From: Pantoea eucalypti
GTDB lineage: Bacteria; Pseudomonadota; Gammaproteobacteria; Enterobacterales; Enterobacteriaceae
Assembly: GCF_009646115.1 (NCBI RefSeq)
Contig: NZ_CP045720.1
Span: 3,658,001 to 3,722,000 of the forward strand
Direction of reading: 5' to 3'
DNA length: 64,000 nucleotides
Made by a program: the position numbers and the translations under genes. Under the pieces are notes generated by a model. It did not search any database. It saw only the letters and a program-made list of their open reading frames with translations, and was not told where the DNA came from. Of this stretch, positions 17,689-28,985 are shown piece after piece; within the stretch, counting starts at the first letter, position 1; the number at the start of each line of letters is the position of its first letter.

Positions 17689-20022
17689 TCACTTCTCCTG
17701 CTCTGATACCCAGTCACGCAGTACCTGCACATCATGTCGCCACTCCTGTTTCAACTCATCGATCCATTCAACAACATTGTCCCACCATGCCGGTAACTCC
17801 GGACTCTGAATCTGTTTCGCCAGCATCTGCAAACGCTGCAGCCCTACTGAACCCGCCGCACCTTTAATTTTGTGGCCTTCTTCAGCAATCCCTTTCTGAT
17901 CTCGGGCCATCAGATTGGATTCCAGAACCGCAAGATAGTCTGGCATCATTTTTTCAAACATCGTCAGACTTTGGGTTATCAGACCGGGGCCGACCAGTTC
18001 GATATACTGTTCGAGCATGGCAACATCCAGAAGCATCCGACTTTTGTCATCGCTGACATCAAGCGTTTCTTCTTCCGCTTCTGCCTGATAATCCCAGTAC
18101 TTTTTAATCATCGCAGTCAGTGCTGGCACCGCAAGAGGTTTGCTAAGCACGTCATCCATGCCTGCGTCGAAGTACTCTTTTTTGTCTTTAAGAACATTGG
18201 CGGTAAGTGCAACCAGCGGTGGCAGATGTGTTCCCTGATACTGCTGGCGAATCGCACGCGAGACATCCAGCCCGGTCATATCAGGCAATTGAATATCCAG
18301 CAGCACCAGATCAAACTCCAGCGGGTCAAACATCGCCAGCGCCTCACTGCCGGTCATGGCGACCTCAACGCTACAGCCCAGCTTTTCCAGTACTGAGCGC
18401 GCCACAATCACGTTGAGCTCAATATCTTCGACTAACAGTACGTGCAGTGCAGGCAGTGGCAGGCTGTCATCCACACCTTCGTCCTCCACCTCTTCAGCAA
18501 TACGCGGGGCTTTGATTTCAACGGTGAAGCATGAACCTTGTCCTGGTGCACTGTGAACCCGGATATCCCCGCCCATCGCCTGCGCCAGTCGGCGTGATAC
18601 CGCCAGCCCGATACCGGTACCAGTTGCGGGTTTGCCGCCATGCTGGTCTTTAACCTGATAGTACATGGCAAAAATCTTGTCCTGCTCGTCCTGGCGAATC
18701 CCCATGCCGGAATCCTGCACCTCAAAGCGCAGCGTCTCGTCCTGCTCATAGGAGACCCGCACGACAATTTCACCCTGTTGGGTAAATTTCACGGCGTTAC
18801 CAATCAGGTTCCACAGAATCTGGCGCAAGCGGGTCCCGTCGGTGGAAATCATATGCGGCAGTGGCAGTTGCGGCGCGAGCACAAATTTCAGCCCTTTTGG
18901 CTGTGCCAGCAGGCCGGAAAGATTTTCCAAATCGGCCAGGAAGCCGGTGAAATCAAGCGGCTGATTATCCAGTTGCACTTTACGGCGTTCGATTTTGTCC
19001 ACCTCAATGACATCATTAAAGATGTTGCCCAGCGTGATGGCAGAGACGTGGATGGTTTTCAGGTATTTCAGCTGTTCCTGATTAAGGTCGGTATCCAGCA
19101 GAATACGGCTCAGGCCAACAATGCCATTAAGCGGCGTACGAAGCTCGTGGCTGATCGTAGAGATAAAGGTGGTCTTCTCCCGGCTGGCGTTCTCTAACGC
19201 GTCCTGATAGCGCTTACGCTCGGTTATATCGCGGCCAAAACCCATTAGCCCGCTGCGCTTACCCACACGGTCGTAATAAGGCACTTTACGGATCTCGAAA
19301 CAGGCTTTGCGCCCGTCGGGATATTGCAGCCACTGTTCATAGGTCAGCGAGACGTTGTGGCGGAATACTTTTTCATCTGTTTCAAGCACCTTCGTTGCCG
19401 CTTCATCATCGTAGATATCACGCGGAGTCAGGCCGATCAGCTGCTTTTCGCTTTTGCCGGTCAGTAATTCCATTGCACGGTTACAGCCGGAGAACTGTTT
19501 ATCGATGTTGCGATAGAAAACCAGGTCTGGCGAAGCATCCAGGAATGAGCGCAGGAAGGAAGATTGCTGCTCCAGCTCAATCTGTGCCTGCTCACGACGC
19601 GTCACCTCTTCACGCAACTTGTCCATCACCTGCTCACGAGCCAGCTCCGCCTTTTTACGGTCGCTGATCTCCTGATTCAGCTGCGTAATGGTCTCTTTCA
19701 TCTGCTGATTGAGTTCCAGATCACGTGTGCGCATCTCTTCCAGCTTGTCCACCAGCCTGGCCAGTCGTTGTCGTGACTCTTCAAGCTGATCGACCACGAC
19801 GGACAGGAAATAGACTGCCCAGGGCGTAATCAGCAGCCCGAAGAAGACCGAACGCACCACGTCAATACTCTCAACATGGCCCCGCAGCACCATCGTGACC
19901 GCCATCTGGACAATCATCGCCAGCACCACCAGCGCAGACGCCAGCAGCAGCGAGAACCTCACCAAACCCAGCTTGACCATTAAATCAACGTAGTACTGCG
20001 CCAACAGACGAATTTGTTTCAT
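17689..20022 (-). CDS. arcB: Aerobic respiration control sensor kinase ArcB
   Basis: ArcB senses the quinone-pool redox state and phosphorylates ArcA. With the ATG at 20022 (preceded by GGGAG) the protein is 777 aa and starts MKQIRLLAQYYVDLMVKLGL as in E. coli. It has two transmembrane helices (about 21-80), a coiled coil, a PAS domain (about 155-265), the HisKA phosphosite FISTISHELRTPLNG, an ATPase domain with GTGIGLAVSRR, a receiver with LVLLDIQLPDMTG, and a C-terminal HPt with EEGHKIKGAAGSVG. All three phosphorelay residues are present. The neighbours elbB and yhcC of E. coli are absent. Confidence 0.97.
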   Translation of the reverse strand: MKQIRLLAQYYVDLMVKLGLVRFSLLLASALVVLAMIVQMAVTMVLRGHVESIDVVRSVFFGLLITPWAVYFLSVVVDQLEESRQRLARLVDKLEEMRTRDLELNQQMKETITQLNQEISDRKKAELAREQVMDKLREEVTRREQAQIELEQQSSFLRSFLDASPDLVFYRNIDKQFSGCNRAMELLTGKSEKQLIGLTPRDIYDDEAATKVLETDEKVFRHNVSLTYEQWLQYPDGRKACFEIRKVPYYDRVGKRSGLMGFGRDITERKRYQDALENASREKTTFISTISHELRTPLNGIVGLSRILLDTDLNQEQLKYLKTIHVSAITLGNIFNDVIEVDKIERRKVQLDNQPLDFTGFLADLENLSGLLAQPKGLKFVLAPQLPLPHMISTDGTRLRQILWNLIGNAVKFTQQGEIVVRVSYEQDETLRFEVQDSGMGIRQDEQDKIFAMYYQVKDQHGGKPATGTGIGLAVSRRLAQAMGGDIRVHSAPGQGSCFTVEIKAPRIAEEVEDEGVDDSLPLPALHVLLVEDIELNVIVARSVLEKLGCSVEVAMTGSEALAMFDPLEFDLVLLDIQLPDMTGLDVSRAIRQQYQGTHLPPLVALTANVLKDKKEYFDAGMDDVLSKPLAVPALTAMIKKYWDYQAEAEEETLDVSDDKSRMLLDVAMLEQYIELVGPGLITQSLTMFEKMMPDYLAVLESNLMARDQKGIAEEGHKIKGAAGSVGLQRLQMLAKQIQSPELPAWWDNVVEWIDELKQEWRHDVQVLRDWVSEQEK

Positions 20023-20911
20023 AACAACTCCCTGGATGAGAAACAGCCTCATAATAGCGCAGTTACCCTGCTGACGTCGCAGCACGTCGCAGGGAGAAGC
20101 GGGATAAAACGCCCTGTTATGGTGCATCCGCGCGGCCGATCGGCGACGTTAAGGACAAAGCGGTTAAAACCCTTGACTGACTGTGCCAAATGAATAATCT
20201 GTAAGGCCGCCAGCGAATCACCGATTTCTCTGTCCGGCCTTTTTTCAATATCCTGGCAGCCTCCTGCTGCGCAGGCACACCTTTCATATATGCATACTCA
20301 TTCATCTTTAATGATGTTTTACGCACGCGCATCCTGATTAATTTTTCTTATAACCAATGGCTGTTTCATTCAAATAGTCGGACATAAGAAAAACAGATAC
20401 ATGCTATGCATCAACGGTGTTGAACAGCATTTAATGCTGTATAACACCCCGTCACCAGCATGGTGCAGAGATCTGATGCCTGCACTACAGTGAGTCAGTT
20501 CACATTTATCGGCCGATCGACGGGTGCCAAAGTGATACATTTTAAACCATAAAAATCATTTAATTCATAAAGTTATATACATTAAACACCTGATTACCCC
20601 GTCTGACCACGCCATTTGACCTGATTACGCTTTCCCGATAAGTTGGAAATCCGCTGAAAGCTTTCCAGACGGGCCATTGTCTCGGCATATCTATGCAACA
20701 AGAAGACTCCCGCGTGGTTTAAGTCATCTCCTTTAAGAGACCGGAAATCAGAGAGCAGCTCAATTAAGGACGTTTTACCGATGTCTGGAGAGAAATGCTC
20801 AGGGCTATGACGCGCGCTCGACAGAGCATGGCGATGAAAATGATAGCGCCCCAGTGCGCCCAGACCCTGAATCAGTGCAGGTAATGTCAAAGCAGTTTAA
20901 GGAGACCCTCA
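20023..20911. other. Long non-coding region between arcB and the glutamate-synthase-like gene
   Basis: About 890 bp lying between divergent genes. It must contain the arcB promoter at the left and the promoter and leader of the large gene at the right (ribosome site TTTAAGGAG ends 9 bases before its ATG). The only striking element is a 33-nt hyphenated palindrome at 20416-20448. A minus-strand reading frame at 20594-20890 starts with TTG, lacks a ribosome site and resembles nothing known to me. Confidence 0.6.
20416..20448. promoter_or_regulatory. 33-nt hyphenated palindrome, candidate operator
   Basis: Left arm GGTGTTGAACAGCATT and right arm AATGCTGTATAACACC flank one central T; 14 of 16 positions pair. 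The inner 17 bases form a perfect odd palindrome. There is no T run, so it is unlikely to be a terminator. It lies about 465 bp upstream of the large glutamate-synthase-like gene and about 395 bp upstream of arcB. Which regulator, if any, uses it is unknown. Confidence 0.5.
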
Positions 20912-23900
20912 ATGTCCACTAAAAAACCTCAATCCTATGGCTTGTATGATCCGACAGCAGGCAGTGACAGCTGTGGTGTAGGTTTCATTACGCGTAAGGA
21001 CGGCGAGCAGACCCACGAGATTCTGCAGATGGCACACAGCGCTCTGTGTACCGTGCCTCACCGCGGCGGTATGTCCGCGGAAGGCGTCGGCGATGGTGCG
21101 GGGGTCAACGTTGATCTGTCGCTGCACTTCTTCCGCAAAATTACCGGCCAGCCGCTGGAAGCGGGTCGCTTTGGTGTCGGCAACTTCTTCGTGCCAAAAG
21201 ATGCCGGGCTGCGCGCGAATGCCGAACGTCTGGTGGATGAGGCACTCAGCAGCTTTGGCCTGCCGGTGATCATGAAACGCGACATGCCGCTCGACAGTAG
21301 CGTGACGCGCCCGGCCGCCGTGCAGTTTCAGCTACCGATTTTGCAGTGGATTTTCACTGCGCCAGAGGACGTGGTCGACCAGAACGACTTCGAAAAACGT
21401 ATCTACCGCGCCCTGCTGACCATTGAAGCCCGTGCGTTTACCGAAAGCGAATTTGGCGGTCTTTATCCGCTGTCGCTGTCATCACGCACCCAGGTGTTTA
21501 AAGCCCGTCTGAATTCCAATGAAGTGATCCCTTACTTCAAAGATCTGACCGATCCGGACCATCAGGTACGCGGGCTGTTCTTCCATACCCGCTTCTCCAC
21601 TAACACCGATCCGCATACCACCATGGCACAACCGTTCCGCCTGATGGCGCATAACGGTGAACTGAACACTGACCGCAAAAACCGCATCGCCGAGTCGGCG
21701 CTGGCGCTGGCGCGTGGCAAGAAAATCGTCCGGCCAAAAGGCCAGTCTGACAGTTCGCGTCTGGATCAGAGCATCCACAGCCGTCTGATGGAAGATAACC
21801 TCGATCTGATCACCGCCGTGGTCTCGATGATGCCGCCCGCCTGGGAAAATGACAGTTCTCTGCCGACAGAAGTGCGCGACATGCTGGAGTATTTCTCGCT
21901 GTATGAAGAGAAGAACGACGGCCCTGCAGCATTAATCTTTGGCAATGGCGAAGTCATTGGTGCTCGTCTGGACCGTCTTGGCCTGCGTCCACTGCGTTCA
22001 GTCGAAACGGCTGAGTATATCGGTGCAATGTCAGAAGCCGGGCAGATCGCGTTTCCACCTGAAAGCGTGTTGCGTCGTGGCCGAATCGAAGCGGGCGGCA
22101 TGCTCTATTTCGATCATCGTGAAAAACGCAGCTACACCACGCTGCAGGCGCTGGAAAAACTGGCTGCAGAGAAAGATTATTCTGCGTTGCTTCGCGAAGC
22201 GCGCGTCGGTCTTGACGATCTGCCTGAGATCCCGGCAGAGCAGCAGGGTTCACCGTTACGTTATCGCGGCGACCTGAAAACCTATCAGCGCTTTGTTGCC
22301 TACTACTACAACCAGGAAAGCTTCAAGTTCATGATGGACCCGATGCTGAACACTGGCGCAGAGAAGATCTCTGCGATGGGTTACGGCAACGCCATCAATG
22401 GCTTATCCGATCATGAAGGCGGCATGGCGCACTACTTCTCTCAGCGCTTTGCTCAGGTAACCAACCCACCGCTGGACTCTATCCGCGAAGTGGACGGTAT
22501 GACGCTGCGCGTCGCGCTGGGCGCAAAACCGCATCTGGGCCGCAGTAAAGGCCGTCAGATTGTGGTGCCGAGCCCCATCCTCAGCCACCTTGATATGCTG
22601 CGTTTACGTGAGCAGAAAATCGCGCCTTATGCCCGCTTTGAGATGCTCTATGAGCCCGTGATCGGTAAAGATTTGCTGAGCACCACGGCTAACGCGAATG
22701 CGCTGGAAAAAGCGATTGATGATCTGGCGCAACAGGTTGTGGATTTTGCCCGCTCTCAGGGTGGCATTGCCGTACTGACCGATCGCCACATCTCGTCGAA
22801 ACACGCGGCGATCCCGATGTTGCTGGTGGTATCCGCCATTAACCAGCGTCTGGTGCAGGAAGGCCTGCGCCTGGATGTCTCTCTGGTGGTAGAGAGCGGC
22901 CAGAGCATCTCCTCGCACCACATTGCCGCCACACTTGGTTTCGGTGCTTCCGCTATCTACCCACTGGGCGTACAGATGCGCGCAGAGGAGAAATTTGGTG
23001 AAGGTGAAGAAGGCAACAAAGCCTTTAAACGCTATGCCAAAGCGGCTGAAAAAGCGCTGATGAAAACCATGGGCAAAGTGGGCCTCTGTACCGTTGAGAG
23101 CTACAGCAGCGGCGAGTTCTTTGAGCCAAACTTCCTCAACACCGATGATCCGGTGTTGAAAAAGTATTTCCCGAATATCAGAACACCGGTGGGCGGCGCA
23201 GGCTTCGCAGCAATCGCGGCGATGGCAGTAGACTGGCACCAGAGCGCACTGAAGATTCAGGGTGAATCTGAAGTGCCATTGCTGGGCCTGTTTAAAGAGC
23301 GTGCAGAAGGCGCGGGGCACTCTTACGGCACCATCGCCGTACGTACTTTCATCGACATGACTGAAGAGCCGATTCGCTTTGCCGACAAAGCGCGCGAAGA
23401 GGACAACTTTATCCGCCTGATGACGCTGGCAAAACTGGATAACGCGTTTGGCATCAAGCCCGAAACGTTCAAAGACAGCAGCTTCGAGCGCATCCCGGAT
23501 GACGTCATCAACAATTTTGCCATTACTGCCGATTATCGTCAGTTCTCAAGCCTGATGTACGAAGAGCGTAAACGTCGTCCGGCGGCCCTGCGCGACATCC
23601 TGACCTTCCCGGCTGATTTGACACACATCGACAGCGAAGCGGAGTTCCGTCGCAAACTGGGACGCTACTCGCTGACCAACAACGGCTTTGCGATTCGCGG
23701 CATGGTGTGTGAAGCGGTGGATGGCAGCCTGAATCACTTCATGCTGCGTCTGACCGATGCCATTGAAGGGCTGAAGCCTGAGAGTGAGCGCCTGGAAAAC
23801 CTGTCTCGTGCTCTGAAGTTCCGCTTCGGCGACGATATTGAGAGCAGCGAAGTGGTTGAAGGCGGTCTGAAAGTGACCGCATACGGTAAAGCGGCAGATT

Positions 23901-26443
23901 ATCTGTCACGTATCTTCACCACCCTGCCCTCACTGCCGCTGAGCGACGTACAGCCAGCCTGTGAAATTACCCGTACCTTTGCCTCCGGGGCGATGAGCCA
24001 CGGTGCGCTGGTCGCGCCTGCTCATGAAGCGGTTGCACACGGCACGAATATGGTCGGCGGCATGAGTAACTGCGGTGAAGGCGGTGAGCACTACTCCCGC
24101 CATGGCACTATTCGTGCCTCCCGTATCAAACAGCTGGCTTCCGGTCGTTTCGGCGTCTGGGCTGCCTATCTGGCAGATCCAATGCTGGAAGAGCTGGAGA
24201 TCAAAATTGGTCAGGGTGCGAAGCCTGGCGAAGGCGGACAGTTACCGGCAGCCAAAGTCACGGTAGAGATTGCGGCTGCGCGTGGCGGCACGCCTGGCGT
24301 TGAGCTGGTTTCTCCACCGCCACACCATGACACCTACTCCATCGAAGATCTGGCGCAGTTAATCCACGACTGTAAAGCCGCGCGGGTGCGCGTTATCGTC
24401 AAACTGGTCTCGTCTGAAGGCATCGGCACCATCGCGGTTGGCGTAGCCAAAGCCGGTGCAGATGTGATTAACGTGGCGGGTAACACCGGCGGTACAGGCG
24501 CAGCGTCTGTCACCAGTCTGAAATACACCGGACGCGTAGCCGAAATCGGCATCGCTGAAGTCCACCAGGCGCTGTGCGCCAATGGTCTGCGCGATAAAGT
24601 CCTGCTGCGCTGCTCTGGCGCGCAACAGACCGGCAGCGATGTCGTGAAATCTGCCCTGCTGGGCGGCGACAGTTTCGAGTTCGGCACTACCGCGCTGATG
24701 ATGCTGAAATGCGTGATGGCGAAGAACTGTAATGTGAAGTGCCCGGCTGGCTTAACCACCAATGCCGAAGCCTTTGATGGCGATCCACGTCAGCTGGCGC
24801 AGTACTTCCTCAACGTGGCGCATGAAGTGCGTGAGATCCTGGCACGTATGGGTCTGCGTTCTTTGCGTGAAGCGCGCGGTCGCTCTGACCTGCTGCACCT
24901 GATGGATCACCCGCTGGAAGTGGGCAAACTCGACTTACGCGCCATGCTCACCGTGGTGCCTGAACTGAAAATCGACAAGCCGGTTTATCTGGAAAAAGAT
25001 TTTGAACTGGATGATGGCTGGATTGAGCAGCTGAAACTGTCGCTGGTGGAGCAGGGAAATCCTGACGTCGCACTGGGCGATGGCATCGTGCTGAATAACC
25101 GCAACAAAAGTGTCGGTGGTCAGCTGGCTATCGATATCGAACGCATGCTGAACCATCAGTTGAGCGCGGAGCAGTTAAACCTGATGCCTGCTGTCATGAC
25201 TGACGATCGCGGTCGCCGCTATCTGGCGCCTGAGAGCGTAAAAATTTCCACAACCGGCTCTGCCGGCCAGTCATTTGGCGCATTCTGCAACGATGGCATG
25301 CAGCTGGCCCACTATGGCACCTGTAATGATGGTGTCGGCAAAGGACAGTGTGGCGGCGAACTGATTGTGATGTCGCCGGGTGGCGGCGCGCAGGATGCTG
25401 ATGGCAACGTGCTGATTGGTAACTTTGCGCTGTTCGGTGCAACCGGCGGACGTCTGTTCGTACAGGGCCAGGCCGGTGACCGCTTCGCGGTGCGTAACTC
25501 AGGTGCAACCGCCGTCGTTGAAGGCGTGGGTGACTTCTGCTGTGAATATATGACCAACGGCGCCATTCTTAACCTGGGCACCTTTGGTAAAGGATTTGGC
25601 AACGGCATGAGTGGCGGCTTTGCCTACCAGTACGATCCCTATGGATCGCTGGCAAGCCACGCTGCCGGGGACTCTGTGCGGTTTGGCTCGATTGCCGACC
25701 AGGATGAGATGGCGCAGGTGCACAAGCAGGCGGTACTGACCATGCTCAACTGGCATCTTGAGGCGACGAAATCGCCACGTGCTGCCTGGCTGCTGGAAAA
25801 CTGGGAAACAGAGTGTCATCACTTCGTTTATGTGATGCCACGTTCGCTGCTGCTCTATCAGGATGGCGGTGAGATCCTGAAAGCCAAGAGCCGTAAAGAT
25901 CTGCTCGAAGAGCTATCAACGGCGCTGGCAGGCCATCAGGTTGCCAAGTTTAAAGCCGCGTGGCGTCAGGGTAAAACCATCGCCAACGGTGCCGTACCAG
26001 CCTATGGCGCGACCGATACGCAGGAGATGTTTGTCCTGCTGAACAACTACACCGTGCTGAGCTTTGCGCAGCAACTGGCACTGGCAAAATTGCCGAAAGG
26101 CACGTCAGTTGAAGATCCGGCGGTAGAAAAAGCGGTGCGTAATCTGCTGATGACGGAAGACTTTTCGCTGGTCAGTAAGCTGCAGCGTCATGCCCGTTCC
26201 GCCATCGAGAGTTACAGCGATGACGAACTGGCGAGTCTGATTGGGACCAAACGCATGTCAGATTACAAAGCGGCGCTGACGCAACGTAATATCCGCTCCA
26301 TGGACAGCCTGGCAACCTACGGCTGGATCATGTATCAGGATGCCTGTAACCGGGAAGTGCTGGGTCATCTGCCTGACTTTGAAGAGCTGTTTGCACGTGC
26401 GGCATTGCCGGAAATCGCCGCTGCGGTGGGTAAACTCTCCTGA
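20912..26443 (+). CDS. Divergent large glutamate-synthase-like protein (1843 aa)
   Basis: Domain order is that of the GOGAT large chain: an N-terminal class II glutaminase whose nucleophile Cys21 sits in SDSCGVGF (about 21-430), a central domain with FAQVTNPPLDSIRE, an FMN-binding synthase domain from about 1010 (GQGAKPGEGGQLPAAKV, SPPPHHDTYSIEDLAQLI), a cysteine cluster at 1267/1273/1277, and a GXGXG beta-helix domain from about 1480 to 1600. E. coli GltB is about 1490-1520 aa. The extra length is mainly an insert of about 115 aa just before the FMN domain and a helical C-terminal extension of about 190 aa. The cysteine spacing is C-x5-C-x3-C instead of the C-x5-C-x4-C recalled for E. coli. 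It occupies the gltB position after arcB, but gltD does not follow; a diflavin reductase does, 185 bp on. The glutaminase parts suggest glutamate synthesis from glutamine and 2-oxoglutarate, but the true product is inferred. Confidence 0.85.
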   Translation: MSTKKPQSYGLYDPTAGSDSCGVGFITRKDGEQTHEILQMAHSALCTVPHRGGMSAEGVGDGAGVNVDLSLHFFRKITGQPLEAGRFGVGNFFVPKDAGLRANAERLVDEALSSFGLPVIMKRDMPLDSSVTRPAAVQFQLPILQWIFTAPEDVVDQNDFEKRIYRALLTIEARAFTESEFGGLYPLSLSSRTQVFKARLNSNEVIPYFKDLTDPDHQVRGLFFHTRFSTNTDPHTTMAQPFRLMAHNGELNTDRKNRIAESALALARGKKIVRPKGQSDSSRLDQSIHSRLMEDNLDLITAVVSMMPPAWENDSSLPTEVRDMLEYFSLYEEKNDGPAALIFGNGEVIGARLDRLGLRPLRSVETAEYIGAMSEAGQIAFPPESVLRRGRIEAGGMLYFDHREKRSYTTLQALEKLAAEKDYSALLREARVGLDDLPEIPAEQQGSPLRYRGDLKTYQRFVAYYYNQESFKFMMDPMLNTGAEKISAMGYGNAINGLSDHEGGMAHYFSQRFAQVTNPPLDSIREVDGMTLRVALGAKPHLGRSKGRQIVVPSPILSHLDMLRLREQKIAPYARFEMLYEPVIGKDLLSTTANANALEKAIDDLAQQVVDFARSQGGIAVLTDRHISSKHAAIPMLLVVSAINQRLVQEGLRLDVSLVVESGQSISSHHIAATLGFGASAIYPLGVQMRAEEKFGEGEEGNKAFKRYAKAAEKALMKTMGKVGLCTVESYSSGEFFEPNFLNTDDPVLKKYFPNIRTPVGGAGFAAIAAMAVDWHQSALKIQGESEVPLLGLFKERAEGAGHSYGTIAVRTFIDMTEEPIRFADKAREEDNFIRLMTLAKLDNAFGIKPETFKDSSFERIPDDVINNFAITADYRQFSSLMYEERKRRPAALRDILTFPADLTHIDSEAEFRRKLGRYSLTNNGFAIRGMVCEAVDGSLNHFMLRLTDAIEGLKPESERLENLSRALKFRFGDDIESSEVVEGGLKVTAYGKAADYLSRIFTTLPSLPLSDVQPACEITRTFASGAMSHGALVAPAHEAVAHGTNMVGGMSNCGEGGEHYSRHGTIRASRIKQLASGRFGVWAAYLADPMLEELEIKIGQGAKPGEGGQLPAAKVTVEIAAARGGTPGVELVSPPPHHDTYSIEDLAQLIHDCKAARVRVIVKLVSSEGIGTIAVGVAKAGADVINVAGNTGGTGAASVTSLKYTGRVAEIGIAEVHQALCANGLRDKVLLRCSGAQQTGSDVVKSALLGGDSFEFGTTALMMLKCVMAKNCNVKCPAGLTTNAEAFDGDPRQLAQYFLNVAHEVREILARMGLRSLREARGRSDLLHLMDHPLEVGKLDLRAMLTVVPELKIDKPVYLEKDFELDDGWIEQLKLSLVEQGNPDVALGDGIVLNNRNKSVGGQLAIDIERMLNHQLSAEQLNLMPAVMTDDRGRRYLAPESVKISTTGSAGQSFGAFCNDGMQLAHYGTCNDGVGKGQCGGELIVMSPGGGAQDADGNVLIGNFALFGATGGRLFVQGQAGDRFAVRNSGATAVVEGVGDFCCEYMTNGAILNLGTFGKGFGNGMSGGFAYQYDPYGSLASHAAGDSVRFGSIADQDEMAQVHKQAVLTMLNWHLEATKSPRAAWLLENWETECHHFVYVMPRSLLLYQDGGEILKAKSRKDLLEELSTALAGHQVAKFKAAWRQGKTIANGAVPAYGATDTQEMFVLLNNYTVLSFAQQLALAKLPKGTSVEDPAVEKAVRNLLMTEDFSLVSKLQRHARSAIESYSDDELASLIGTKRMSDYKAALTQRNIRSMDSLATYGWIMYQDACNREVLGHLPDFEELFARAALPEIAAAVGKLS

Positions 26444-26628
26444 CAGTGATACTGATCAGGCTGAACTGAATATTATTAATTGATCATTGCCCGGATTAAT
26501 CGCTGTACCGGACAGATGCAAAACCGCTCTCCCCTGCTGCAAAATCTGCGGCACAGGAAAGCGGAACGGCTGTCACACCGGACAACGCCACTGATATCGG
26601 GCGAGAACGGGATTGAGTAAACGTACCC

Positions 26629-28386
26629 ATGAAAATTCCTTATATTCCAGAAGATGCACCTTTTAATGGCGATCAGAAGTACTGGCTGGCTGGCTTTCTT
26701 GCGGGGCTTCACTCCCGTTTGCTGGTGTTAGAAGACAAACAGCAACCTGCCGCAGGTACGGGTGCAGCCGCGACCACGCAACTGCACATTCTGTATGGCT
26801 CGCAGACCGGCAATGCCGAAGCGCTGGCGCAGACCGCAGCAAAATCTGCCCGCGCGAAAGGGCTGGTTCCGGTGGTTCAGGCGCTGGGCGATGTCGATCT
26901 TGATGTGTTCGCCACCATGCGCCATGTGCTGATTGTTACCTCGACCTATGGCGAAGGGGAAATGCCGGACAACGCACAGCTATTCTGGGATGCGATTTCT
27001 GCCAGTACCGCACCGCGTCTGGAGCAGATGCATTTTGCCGTGCTGGCGATTGGCGATACCGGTTACGACGGCTTCTGTCAGGCGGGCAAGTTCATTGATA
27101 TGCGCCTTGAGCAGCTGGGCGCGAAACGCGTGGTTGATCGTATCGATTGTGATATTGATTATGAAGAGCCTTCCAGCGAATGGCTGAACAGCTCAATGCC
27201 ACAGTTTGCTGCCAGCGCGGGCAGCAGCGGCACCGTGCTGGAGAGTGCACCTGAAGCGCCTGTGATTCCTGGCAGCAATAAATCGAATCCGTATGCCGCC
27301 GCACTGATCACCAACAAGCGTTTGTCAGGCGAGCAGTCAGCAAAAGATATCCGTCATTTCGAATTCGACCTGTCGGACAGCGGTCTGAAGTATGAAGCGG
27401 GCGATGCGCTGGGCGTGATTCCGGTCAATGAACCGTCGCTGGTCAGCCTGCTCCTGACTCAGCTTAATGCTGATTACCAGACACCGGTGCCCGGCTTCGA
27501 CCGCAGCCTCGGCGACCTGCTGACCTACCAGTTTGAGATTTCAGAGCCGTCGCGCAAGTTGATCGAATGGGTCGGACAGAACACCACCAACCAGGAACTG
27601 CGTCATGTGTTACAGCATGATGATAAAGATGCGCTGGGCGTGTGGCTGTGGGGCAAAGATACGCTCGACCTGCTGCAGCTTGAACTGACGCGCTCGCTGG
27701 CGGTACCTGAATTCGTCGCTCTGCTGCGTCCGTTGCAGCATCGTGCTTACTCCATTTCGTCCAGTTCTAAAGCCCATCCTAACCAGGTGCATCTGACTGT
27801 TGCCTCAGTGCGTTATCACAGCGGCGGCCGTAATCGCGGTGGCGTCTGCTCCACCTATCTGGCCGAGCGTGTGCGTCGTGGCGAGAAACCCGCCATCTTT
27901 ATTTCACCCAATAAATCGTTCCGCGTGCCGGCTAACAACAGCGCACCGCTGATCATGGTGGGACCCGGTACCGGCATCGCCCCATTCCGGGCCTTCCTGC
28001 AGGAGCGTCAGGCAACCGGCGCGCAGGGAAAAAACTGGCTGTTCTTCGGCGATCAGCATCAGGAACATGACTTTATCTATCAGGATGAATTACTTGCCTG
28101 GCGGGATAATGGCTTGCTGACCCGCCTGGATCTGGCGTTCTCACGCGATCAGGAGAAGAAGATCTACGTGCAGAGCCGGATGCTTGAGCAGGGTGCAGAA
28201 CTCTATGCCTGGCTGCAGGAAGGGGCTTACTTCTACGTCTGCGGCGATGCATCGCGCATGGCGAAGGATGTGGATAACGCGCTGTATGAAGTGGTTCGCC
28301 AGTTTGGTGGGCTCTCCACCGAGCGCGCTGCAGACTACGTGGATCAGCTGAAGAAAGAGAAACGCTACCTGCGCGACGTCTACTGA
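26629..28386 (+). CDS. CysJ-like diflavin reductase (FMN + FAD/NADPH)
   Basis: The 585-aa protein has the layout of the sulfite reductase alpha subunit: a short N-terminal segment (DQKYWLAGFLAGLHSR), an FMN flavodoxin domain with LYGSQTGNAEA at about 55-65 and TSTYGEGEMPDNA at about 104, an FAD domain with RAYSISSSS near 370, and an NADPH domain with VGPGTGIAPFRAF near 445 and VCGDASRMAKDV near 540. It ends KEKRYLRDVY as CysJ does. No cysI or cysH is adjacent. Its only plausible partner is the preceding glutamate-synthase-like gene, so it may supply NADPH electrons in place of GltD; this is inference. The alternative is an unlinked role as a second sulfite reductase flavoprotein. A strong terminator follows. 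Confidence 0.85.
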   Translation: MKIPYIPEDAPFNGDQKYWLAGFLAGLHSRLLVLEDKQQPAAGTGAAATTQLHILYGSQTGNAEALAQTAAKSARAKGLVPVVQALGDVDLDVFATMRHVLIVTSTYGEGEMPDNAQLFWDAISASTAPRLEQMHFAVLAIGDTGYDGFCQAGKFIDMRLEQLGAKRVVDRIDCDIDYEEPSSEWLNSSMPQFAASAGSSGTVLESAPEAPVIPGSNKSNPYAAALITNKRLSGEQSAKDIRHFEFDLSDSGLKYEAGDALGVIPVNEPSLVSLLLTQLNADYQTPVPGFDRSLGDLLTYQFEISEPSRKLIEWVGQNTTNQELRHVLQHDDKDALGVWLWGKDTLDLLQLELTRSLAVPEFVALLRPLQHRAYSISSSSKAHPNQVHLTVASVRYHSGGRNRGGVCSTYLAERVRRGEKPAIFISPNKSFRVPANNSAPLIMVGPGTGIAPFRAFLQERQATGAQGKNWLFFGDQHQEHDFIYQDELLAWRDNGLLTRLDLAFSRDQEKKIYVQSRMLEQGAELYAWLQEGAYFYVCGDASRMAKDVDNALYEVVRQFGGLSTERAADYVDQLKKEKRYLRDVY

Positions 28387-28499: not shown

Positions 28500-28985
28500 C
28501 TATTTCACTACACGGAGTGAAGGGCGTCCGCCACGAGGCGGTGGATCGTCGTCAGGCGGTGTCTCGTCATCGCGGGCATCGTCAGGACGATCGCCATCAA
28601 TCACGGACATCATGGTCTCTTCCTGACCCTCTGACGTCTCCTGCGTACCCAGCTCGTAAGCAGGTTCAGGCTCAAACATCGTCCCGGCACCGTTTTCACG
28701 CGCGTAGATTGCCAGAATCGCCGCCATCGGCACATTAACCTGGCGAGGAACACCACCAAAGCGCGCATTGAACGACACCTGATCATTCGCCAAATCAAGG
28801 TTACCCACCGCGCGTGGCGCGATGTTCAGGACAATCTGACCATCACGCGCATACTCCAGCGGCACCTGCACACCGGGCAGATTAATATCGACCACGAGGT
28901 GCGGCGTCAGCTGATTGTCGAGCAACCAGTCATAGAAGGCGCGAAGCAGGTAGGGACGACGTGCAGTAAGTTGCGACATTTCCAT
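28500..28985 (-). CDS. sspB: ClpXP protease specificity-enhancing factor SspB
   Basis: SspB delivers ssrA-tagged proteins to ClpXP. The 161-aa protein has the tag-binding domain (RRPYLLRAFYDWLLDNQLTP, GQIVLNIAPRAVGNL, FNARFGGVPRQVNVP) followed by an acidic, proline-rich flexible linker and the C-terminal ClpX-binding peptide GGRPSLRVVK, matching E. coli. It lies 3 bp after sspA, in one operon. Confidence 0.97.
   Translation of the reverse strand: MEMSQLTARRPYLLRAFYDWLLDNQLTPHLVVDINLPGVQVPLEYARDGQIVLNIAPRAVGNLDLANDQVSFNARFGGVPRQVNVPMAAILAIYARENGAGTMFEPEPAYELGTQETSEGQEETMMSVIDGDRPDDARDDETPPDDDPPPRGGRPSLRVVK

Follow-up and report, generated by a model that had tools for sequence, protein, structure and literature searches.

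The window analysed here is a stretch of 64,000 nucleotides from Pantoea eucalypti (RefSeq assembly GCF_009646115.1, contig NZ_CP045720.1, positions 3,658,001 to 3,722,000 of the forward strand). It carries two neighbouring genes which, judged by their sequences, very probably encode a two-component glutamate synthase with a fourth type of electron input, leading from NADPH through flavin adenine dinucleotide (FAD), flavin mononucleotide (FMN) and an iron-sulfur (Fe-S) cluster to a second FMN. In the list of open reading frames (ORFs) of the window, the first gene (20912..26443, plus strand, ATG start) encodes a glutamate synthase (GOGAT) large chain of 1843 amino acids, and the second (26629..28386, plus strand, ATG start) encodes a diflavin reductase of 585 amino acids, which we propose as the NADPH-dependent electron donor of the GOGAT. 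An earlier note on this DNA had read the genes as a GOGAT large-chain homologue followed by an FMN/FAD/NADPH reductase; both ORFs are in place, and the Pfam domains agree with that reading. The two genes are separated by 185 bp (26444..26628, plus strand), in which no promoter-like or terminator-like site is listed and no Rfam match was obtained.

Pfam gives the GOGAT the four large-chain domains in order, GATase_2, Glu_syn_central, Glu_synthase and GXGXG, and only these; no fused beta domain was found. The model NF008730 (glutamate synthase large subunit) recognizes it with 1049.5 bits, barely above the cut-off of 1047. A probable propeptide of 20 residues (20912..20971), placed by alignment to solved chains, precedes Cys21, which matches the first residue of both 1ea0 and 1llw and is the probable N-terminal nucleophile expected after removal of the predicted propeptide. 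There follow the class II glutamine amidotransferase domain (residues 21-424, 20972..22183; PF00310, E 8.3e-85), in which HNGELNT and GDGAG are kept in 90 of 90 family members and CGVGF in 89 of 90, the central domain (residues 460-738, 22289..23125; PF04898), the FMN-binding synthase domain (residues 1008-1315, 23933..24856; PF01645, E 1.2e-104) and the GXGXG domain (residues 1428-1599, 25193..25708; PF01493), all on the plus strand, as are the features below. Two regions are extra in the alignment with E. coli GltB. The first is a linker insert (about residues 819-1001, 23366..23914), mostly missing from GltB; residues 815-1010 have no Pfam match above cut-off, and residues of about 904-1023 mostly exceed 80 in predicted local distance difference test (pLDDT), although the model as a whole is of low quality. 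The second is a C-terminal extension of about 190 residues (1650-1843, 25859..26440), missing from GltB, with no Pfam match above cut-off and no sequence relative in the PDB; a model of residues 1625-1843 predicts it, with good confidence, to be all-helical (pLDDT 87.5, predicted template-modelling score 0.80).

The expected electron entry point is the Fe-S motif formed by Cys1267, Cys1273 and Cys1277 (24710..24742). Its spacing, C-x5-C-x3-C, was found in 85 of 85 long-GOGAT loci, namely the best 80 of 474 relatives in a scan with one genome per species and five loci on plasmids, whereas E. coli GltB and five matched PDB sequences (three from Azospirillum) have C-x5-C-x4-C. The loop after the motif is also 4-5 residues shorter than in the E. 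coli and PDB sequences. Residues 915-931 of the 1llw chain (Synechocystis ferredoxin-dependent GOGAT, Fd-GOGAT), which we take to be part of the ferredoxin loop, are unaligned to the long GOGAT and so have no counterpart in it; on this ground a ferredoxin-type GOGAT was rejected.

The reductase consists of a flavodoxin-type FMN domain (residues 54-179, 26788..27165; PF00258, Flavodoxin_1), an FAD-binding domain (residues 217-410, 27277..27858; PF00667, FAD_binding_1) and an NADPH-binding domain (residues 443-549, 27955..28275; PF00175, NAD_binding_1), all on the plus strand. The segment SRDQxxK[IVL]YVQ, which we regard as a marker of NADPH use, and a terminal RDVY are kept in 90 of 90 paired reductases. 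Relatives retrieved in the protein search bear the name sulfite reductase, and the protein is 43% identical to the CysJ of its own genome. It nevertheless falls below both cysJ equivalog cut-offs (614.9 bits against 668.15 for TIGR01931 and 514.4 against 838 for PRK10953), while the true CysJ of the genome exceeds both (897.2 and 1171.3 bits). The reductase does pass NF004859, named 'sulfite reductase subunit alpha', with 475.6 bits against a cut-off of 432 and a best stretch limited to residues 207-585. Because the true CysJ passes it too (434.1 bits), this model does not discriminate, and its family name is misleading. In three high scorers of NF004859, alignment to the reductase begins only at residue 214. 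It begins there in a full-length member of that family (L113:7937-11352, 909.2 bits), which has no alignment to the flavodoxin domain and adjoins a NirA-family protein. The true cysJ sits elsewhere in the genome, directly before cysI and cysH (L017:2221-6577, each above its family cut-off), and for this reason the 585-residue protein is a CysJ paralogue with a different gene neighbour. A tie between the reductase and cysI had been envisaged as a possible refutation of the pair; the cysI of this genome adjoins the separate true cysJ instead.

A profile search of the whole genome found neither a canonical gltB nor a canonical gltD. The only full-length GOGAT is the 1843-residue protein, with 340.6 bits for Glu_synthase, and the other matches to this domain reach 20.9 bits (in the same frame) and 20.4 bits (in a frame of 396 amino acids). 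The gltD family yields eight weak matches in the genome, of which the best has 29.8 bits (cut-off 482.95), so that gltD is absent, as the earlier note had supposed. One match to the N-terminal domain of glutamate dehydrogenase (GDH) lies on contig C2, and there are two further short flavodoxin-like matches.

The strongest evidence for a functional link comes from the pairing of the two genes across genomes. The reductase gene lies directly 3' of the long-GOGAT gene, on the same strand, in 85 of 85 loci, and because of this we do not attribute the pairing to chance. The paired reductases are 51.6-99.8% identical to the 585-residue query, the distance from the GOGAT stop to the position equivalent to residue 1 of the reductase ranges from -4 to +189 bp, and in 12 of the 85 loci the genes overlap by 1-4 bp. 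Long-GOGAT loci span Alpha-, Beta- and Gammaproteobacteria, Actinomycetota and one metagenome-assembled genome (MAG) of Verrucomicrobiales; those paired include Pantoea, Mixta, Erwinia, Winslowiella, Comamonadaceae, Methylobacillus, Rhizobiales and Rhodobacterales, as well as SAR92, Mycobacterium, Rhodococcus and Nocardia. Seven of 248 matching plasmid records were examined, and five of these loci are paired; the other two, L024 (Paracoccus) and L025 (Paraburkholderia), hold a reductase 46-49% identical to the query without a GOGAT in the stretch. No cysI-like product occurs among the annotated neighbours of the four annotated paired plasmid loci.

Several side observations concern these families. 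The reductase relative of L024 (L024:8914-10617, plasmid p2 of Paracoccus sp. TOH) lies amid genes for a glutamine-synthetase-family protein, an aldehyde dehydrogenase and a serine hydroxymethyltransferase, and may serve another amination pathway. Two loci whose titles name Mycobacterium and Mycobacteroides (L074:3140-4816 and L083:3189-4859) encode, upstream of the pair and on the other strand, a second reductase of 46% identity. Sequences 45-48% identical to the reductase occur in open frames of 1373-1559 amino acids in seven genomes (G485, G536, G423, G483, G499, G509 and G512) and are probably parts of much larger fused proteins. At L045 and L057, which belong to Candidatus Pantoea haifensis and one assembly of P. 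rodasii, the GOGAT frame is broken; decay or sequencing error could account for this.

Samples of genomes drawn without regard to pairing, and queried with the 194-residue C-terminal extension, gave the same picture. In the sample of the order, 5 of 197 genomes have the long GOGAT, the window's own genome counted, and all five are paired. In the sample of the phylum Pseudomonadota the long GOGAT was found in 6 of 398 genomes (three of them Pantoea), again paired by position in all six, and the six best reductase matches (563.8-1333.9 bits) are in these same six genomes. The next match (G238) scores 548.3 bits and has no GOGAT match within the surrounding 18 kb, the line between 563.8 and 548.3 bits having been set post hoc. 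Around Mycolicibacterium, 3 of 296 genomes match; two are paired, one of them the genome on which the sample was centred, and the third has a short match without a GOGAT. The link between the families of 1843 and 585 amino acids, suspected from this one locus, is thus strict in the 85 loci and in the samples, and an oddity of Pantoea alone is ruled out by the wide scan, the phylum sample and the Actinomycetota sample.

The relation of the pair to canonical GltB and GltD was followed in 38 chosen pair-bearing genomes (33 of the 80 scan loci and five sample genomes). Of these, 27 additionally encode a full-length GOGAT of the canonical kind together with a Fer4_20 protein of GltD type, and in each of the 27 one Fer4_20 protein lies about 6 kb or less from the canonical Glu_synthase domain. 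The other 11 genomes, which lack both a canonical full-length GOGAT and any Fer4_20 match, comprise all eight of the Pantoea, Mixta, Erwinia and Winslowiella genomes together with M. rhizosphaerae, G512 and G385; with the window's genome included, nine genomes of those four genera were searched, and the long form is the only full-length GOGAT in each. From the 27 dual genomes and the 11 with the pair but no Fer4_20 protein, it follows that each type of GOGAT keeps its own putative electron donor. A gltD adjacent to the pair in relatives had been considered damaging to this reading, and gltD does occur near the pair: two genomes (G178 and G021) have the order canonical gltB, gltD, long GOGAT, reductase, and in G094 canonical gltB and gltD come after the pair. 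In all three, however, gltD goes with the separate canonical gltB and the long GOGAT retains its reductase, and we reject its proximity as a refutation. In Corticibacter a canonical-type gltB lies about 2.4 kb after the pair. Such tandem arrangements are plausible intermediates of replacement.

The presence of both systems in so many genomes also feeds the rival reading that survives best, although we think it rather improbable: beside canonical gltBD the pair would not be a general GOGAT, acting instead on another 2-oxo acid or under special conditions, and would make the cell's glutamate only in genomes like that of Pantoea. The conserved amidotransferase motifs speak against this, as does the phenotype of P. 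ananatis, whose gltB knockout is auxotrophic for glutamate according to PMC12364357. The same paper reports no close homologue of the E. coli GOGAT in P. ananatis and a GDH activity near the detection limit in a medium rich in glucose and ammonium; the terms 'small subunit' and 'sulfite reductase' have no occurrence in it. The single full-length GOGAT of P. ananatis LMG 2665 (G548) is the long form, so this gene was very probably the one disrupted in the published knockout, which used a different P. ananatis strain.

The pair of the window lies between arcB (17689..20127, minus strand) and sspB (28500..28985, minus strand), both from the ORF list. The earlier note had placed it at the gltBD site of E. 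coli, and the flanks seen in both genomes confirm this, since gltBD of E. coli K-12 likewise lies between arcB and sspB, with other genes also in that interval. Trees were built from 90 pairs, with the interrupted L045 and L057 dropped and with L115 and L035 representing one genome. In both gene trees a single clade with moderate support (0.75 and 0.55) unites the Erwiniaceae copies; its sister is Lampropedia/Corticibacter (1.0 in both), and next outward come Comamonas (1.0 in both) and Methylobacillus (0.99 and 0.93). That both genes have these unexpected neighbours suggests that they were transferred together. Of the 32 scan loci in the Erwiniaceae clade, one of which comes from a record titled Enterobacter ludwigii, all 32 have arcB beside the pair and 30 have sspB, which suggests a single old replacement at the gltBD site. 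Based on trees and flanks, Pantoea, Mixta, Erwinia and Winslowiella would have inherited the pair from an ancestor that acquired both genes together, probably from a betaproteobacterium, and in which they took the gltBD site. Of the earlier proposal of a local replacement or a divergent lineage-specific system, the replacement of gltBD remains likely; the lineage-specific part does not hold, as the pair is widespread over phyla and the Erwiniaceae copies sit beside betaproteobacterial ones, which points to an imported unit.

As to mechanism, the family and the conserved motifs lead us to propose that the N-terminal amidotransferase domain of the large chain hydrolyses glutamine, and that the ammonia would be channelled to 2-oxoglutarate at the FMN domain, where the imine would be reduced to glutamate. 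The diflavin reductase would take two electrons from NADPH at its FAD and pass them to its flavodoxin-type FMN domain, which would give them singly to the Fe-S cluster of the large chain and hence to the large-chain FMN, the reductase standing in for GltD, ferredoxin or a fused beta domain. A flavodoxin-type domain, being a single-electron carrier, is chemically suited to a 3Fe-4S cluster, the presumed type in the long GOGAT. PMC8097209 has the 3Fe-4S cluster preceding FMN in the GOGAT electron path. As adaptations for docking, the linker insert, the C-terminal extension and the reshaped loop of the cluster would be the likeliest. One could instead imagine that the long GOGAT is fed by a free flavodoxin or ferredoxin, the diflavin protein serving another acceptor or recharging the carrier. 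The two other short flavodoxin-like matches in the genome, and the existence of Fd-GOGATs that use free ferredoxin (PMC8097209), lend this some appeal. We consider it unlikely, given that an FMN domain is already present within the diflavin protein, that strict pairing across phyla points to a dedicated donor and that the presumed ferredoxin-loop residues have no counterpart. Least credible is a second sulfite reductase flavoprotein placed next to GOGAT by chance, which has the NF004859 score and the database names in its favour and which we reject on the missed cysJ cut-offs, the lack of discrimination by NF004859, the separate cysJ-cysI-cysH cluster and the paired plasmid loci devoid of a cysI-like neighbour.

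Some points weigh against a dedicated two-component GOGAT. Adjacency by itself is no proof of electron transfer, which we infer, and no study that tests the reductase biochemically or genetically was found. The scan covers only the best 80 of 474 relatives, and it is not independent of the samples, three genomes being common to both (G097, G527 and G572 are L032, L035 and L092). In a tree rooted with CysJ, the clade (support 0.75) that holds all paired reductases also holds six unpaired sequences: the Paracoccus reductase of L024 (49% identical), the additional reductases of L074 and L083 and, as cut stretches, three sequences of NF004859 type. The reductase subfamily is thus wider than the pair and not exclusively GOGAT-linked. 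Finally, as 27 of the 38 genomes also have a canonical GOGAT, the role of the pair may differ there.

Taken together, our results make it likely that a fourth class of GOGAT exists, which draws electrons from NADPH through a donor of the CysJ/P450-reductase type, occurs in at least two phyla (the MAG suggests a third), passes between lineages with its two genes together, stands entirely in place of GltBD in the Pantoea-Erwinia group and at least one Methylobacillus, and has a donor named sulfite reductase in databases. These plant-associated bacteria have probably exchanged their usual enzyme of ammonia assimilation for a larger version with a probable flavin-based donor. A GOGAT linked to a diflavin reductase was not found in the open-licence literature searched, including PMC12364357, PMC9045290, PMC8097209, PMC4109929 and PMC1766931, and a description elsewhere is possible. 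The variant of glutamate synthase electron input seen here is real and widespread, and our searches of that literature met no account of it. Glutamate synthase is a main entry of ammonia into metabolism. If correct, our reading would explain how ammonia is assimilated in the sampled Pantoea, Erwinia and Methylobacillus genomes without a GltD-type protein, correct the misleading names of two gene families and supply a naturally occurring example in which a flavodoxin-type domain reduces the GOGAT cluster. The 27 genomes with both GOGAT types offer internal controls, and the findings bear on the glutamate metabolism of P. ananatis, an industrial organism.

The pair has both likenesses to the known systems and differences from them. 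CysJ has the same FMN, FAD and NADPH domains and delivers electrons to an Fe-S partner protein; the partner gene here is a GOGAT and not CysI, and the scores stay under both cysJ equivalog cut-offs. The NADH-dependent fused GOGAT has a GltD-like beta part joined to it, in contrast to the separate protein of another fold found here. For GOGAT, three types are listed in the review PMC8097209 (NADPH-GltS, Fd-GltS and the fused form), and the fused form of eukaryotic microorganisms and lower animals resembles our pair in having its own pyridine-nucleotide-linked electron source. With Fd-GOGAT (1llw, 1ofd) the long GOGAT would share the uptake of single electrons at the cluster from a domain like a small carrier; it differs in the missing ferredoxin-loop region, the dedicated NADPH reductase gene and the altered cluster motif. 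A further comparison is with the NADPH-GOGAT of GltB and GltD (1ea0, 6s6s, 7mfm), whose amidotransferase, central, FMN and GXGXG domains follow the same order and which likewise has three cysteines at the cluster and, in E. coli, the same chromosomal site between arcB and sspB. The large chain here has 1843 instead of about 1490 amino acids, with two extra regions and a C-x5-C-x3-C motif, and is accompanied by a diflavin reductase in place of GltD.

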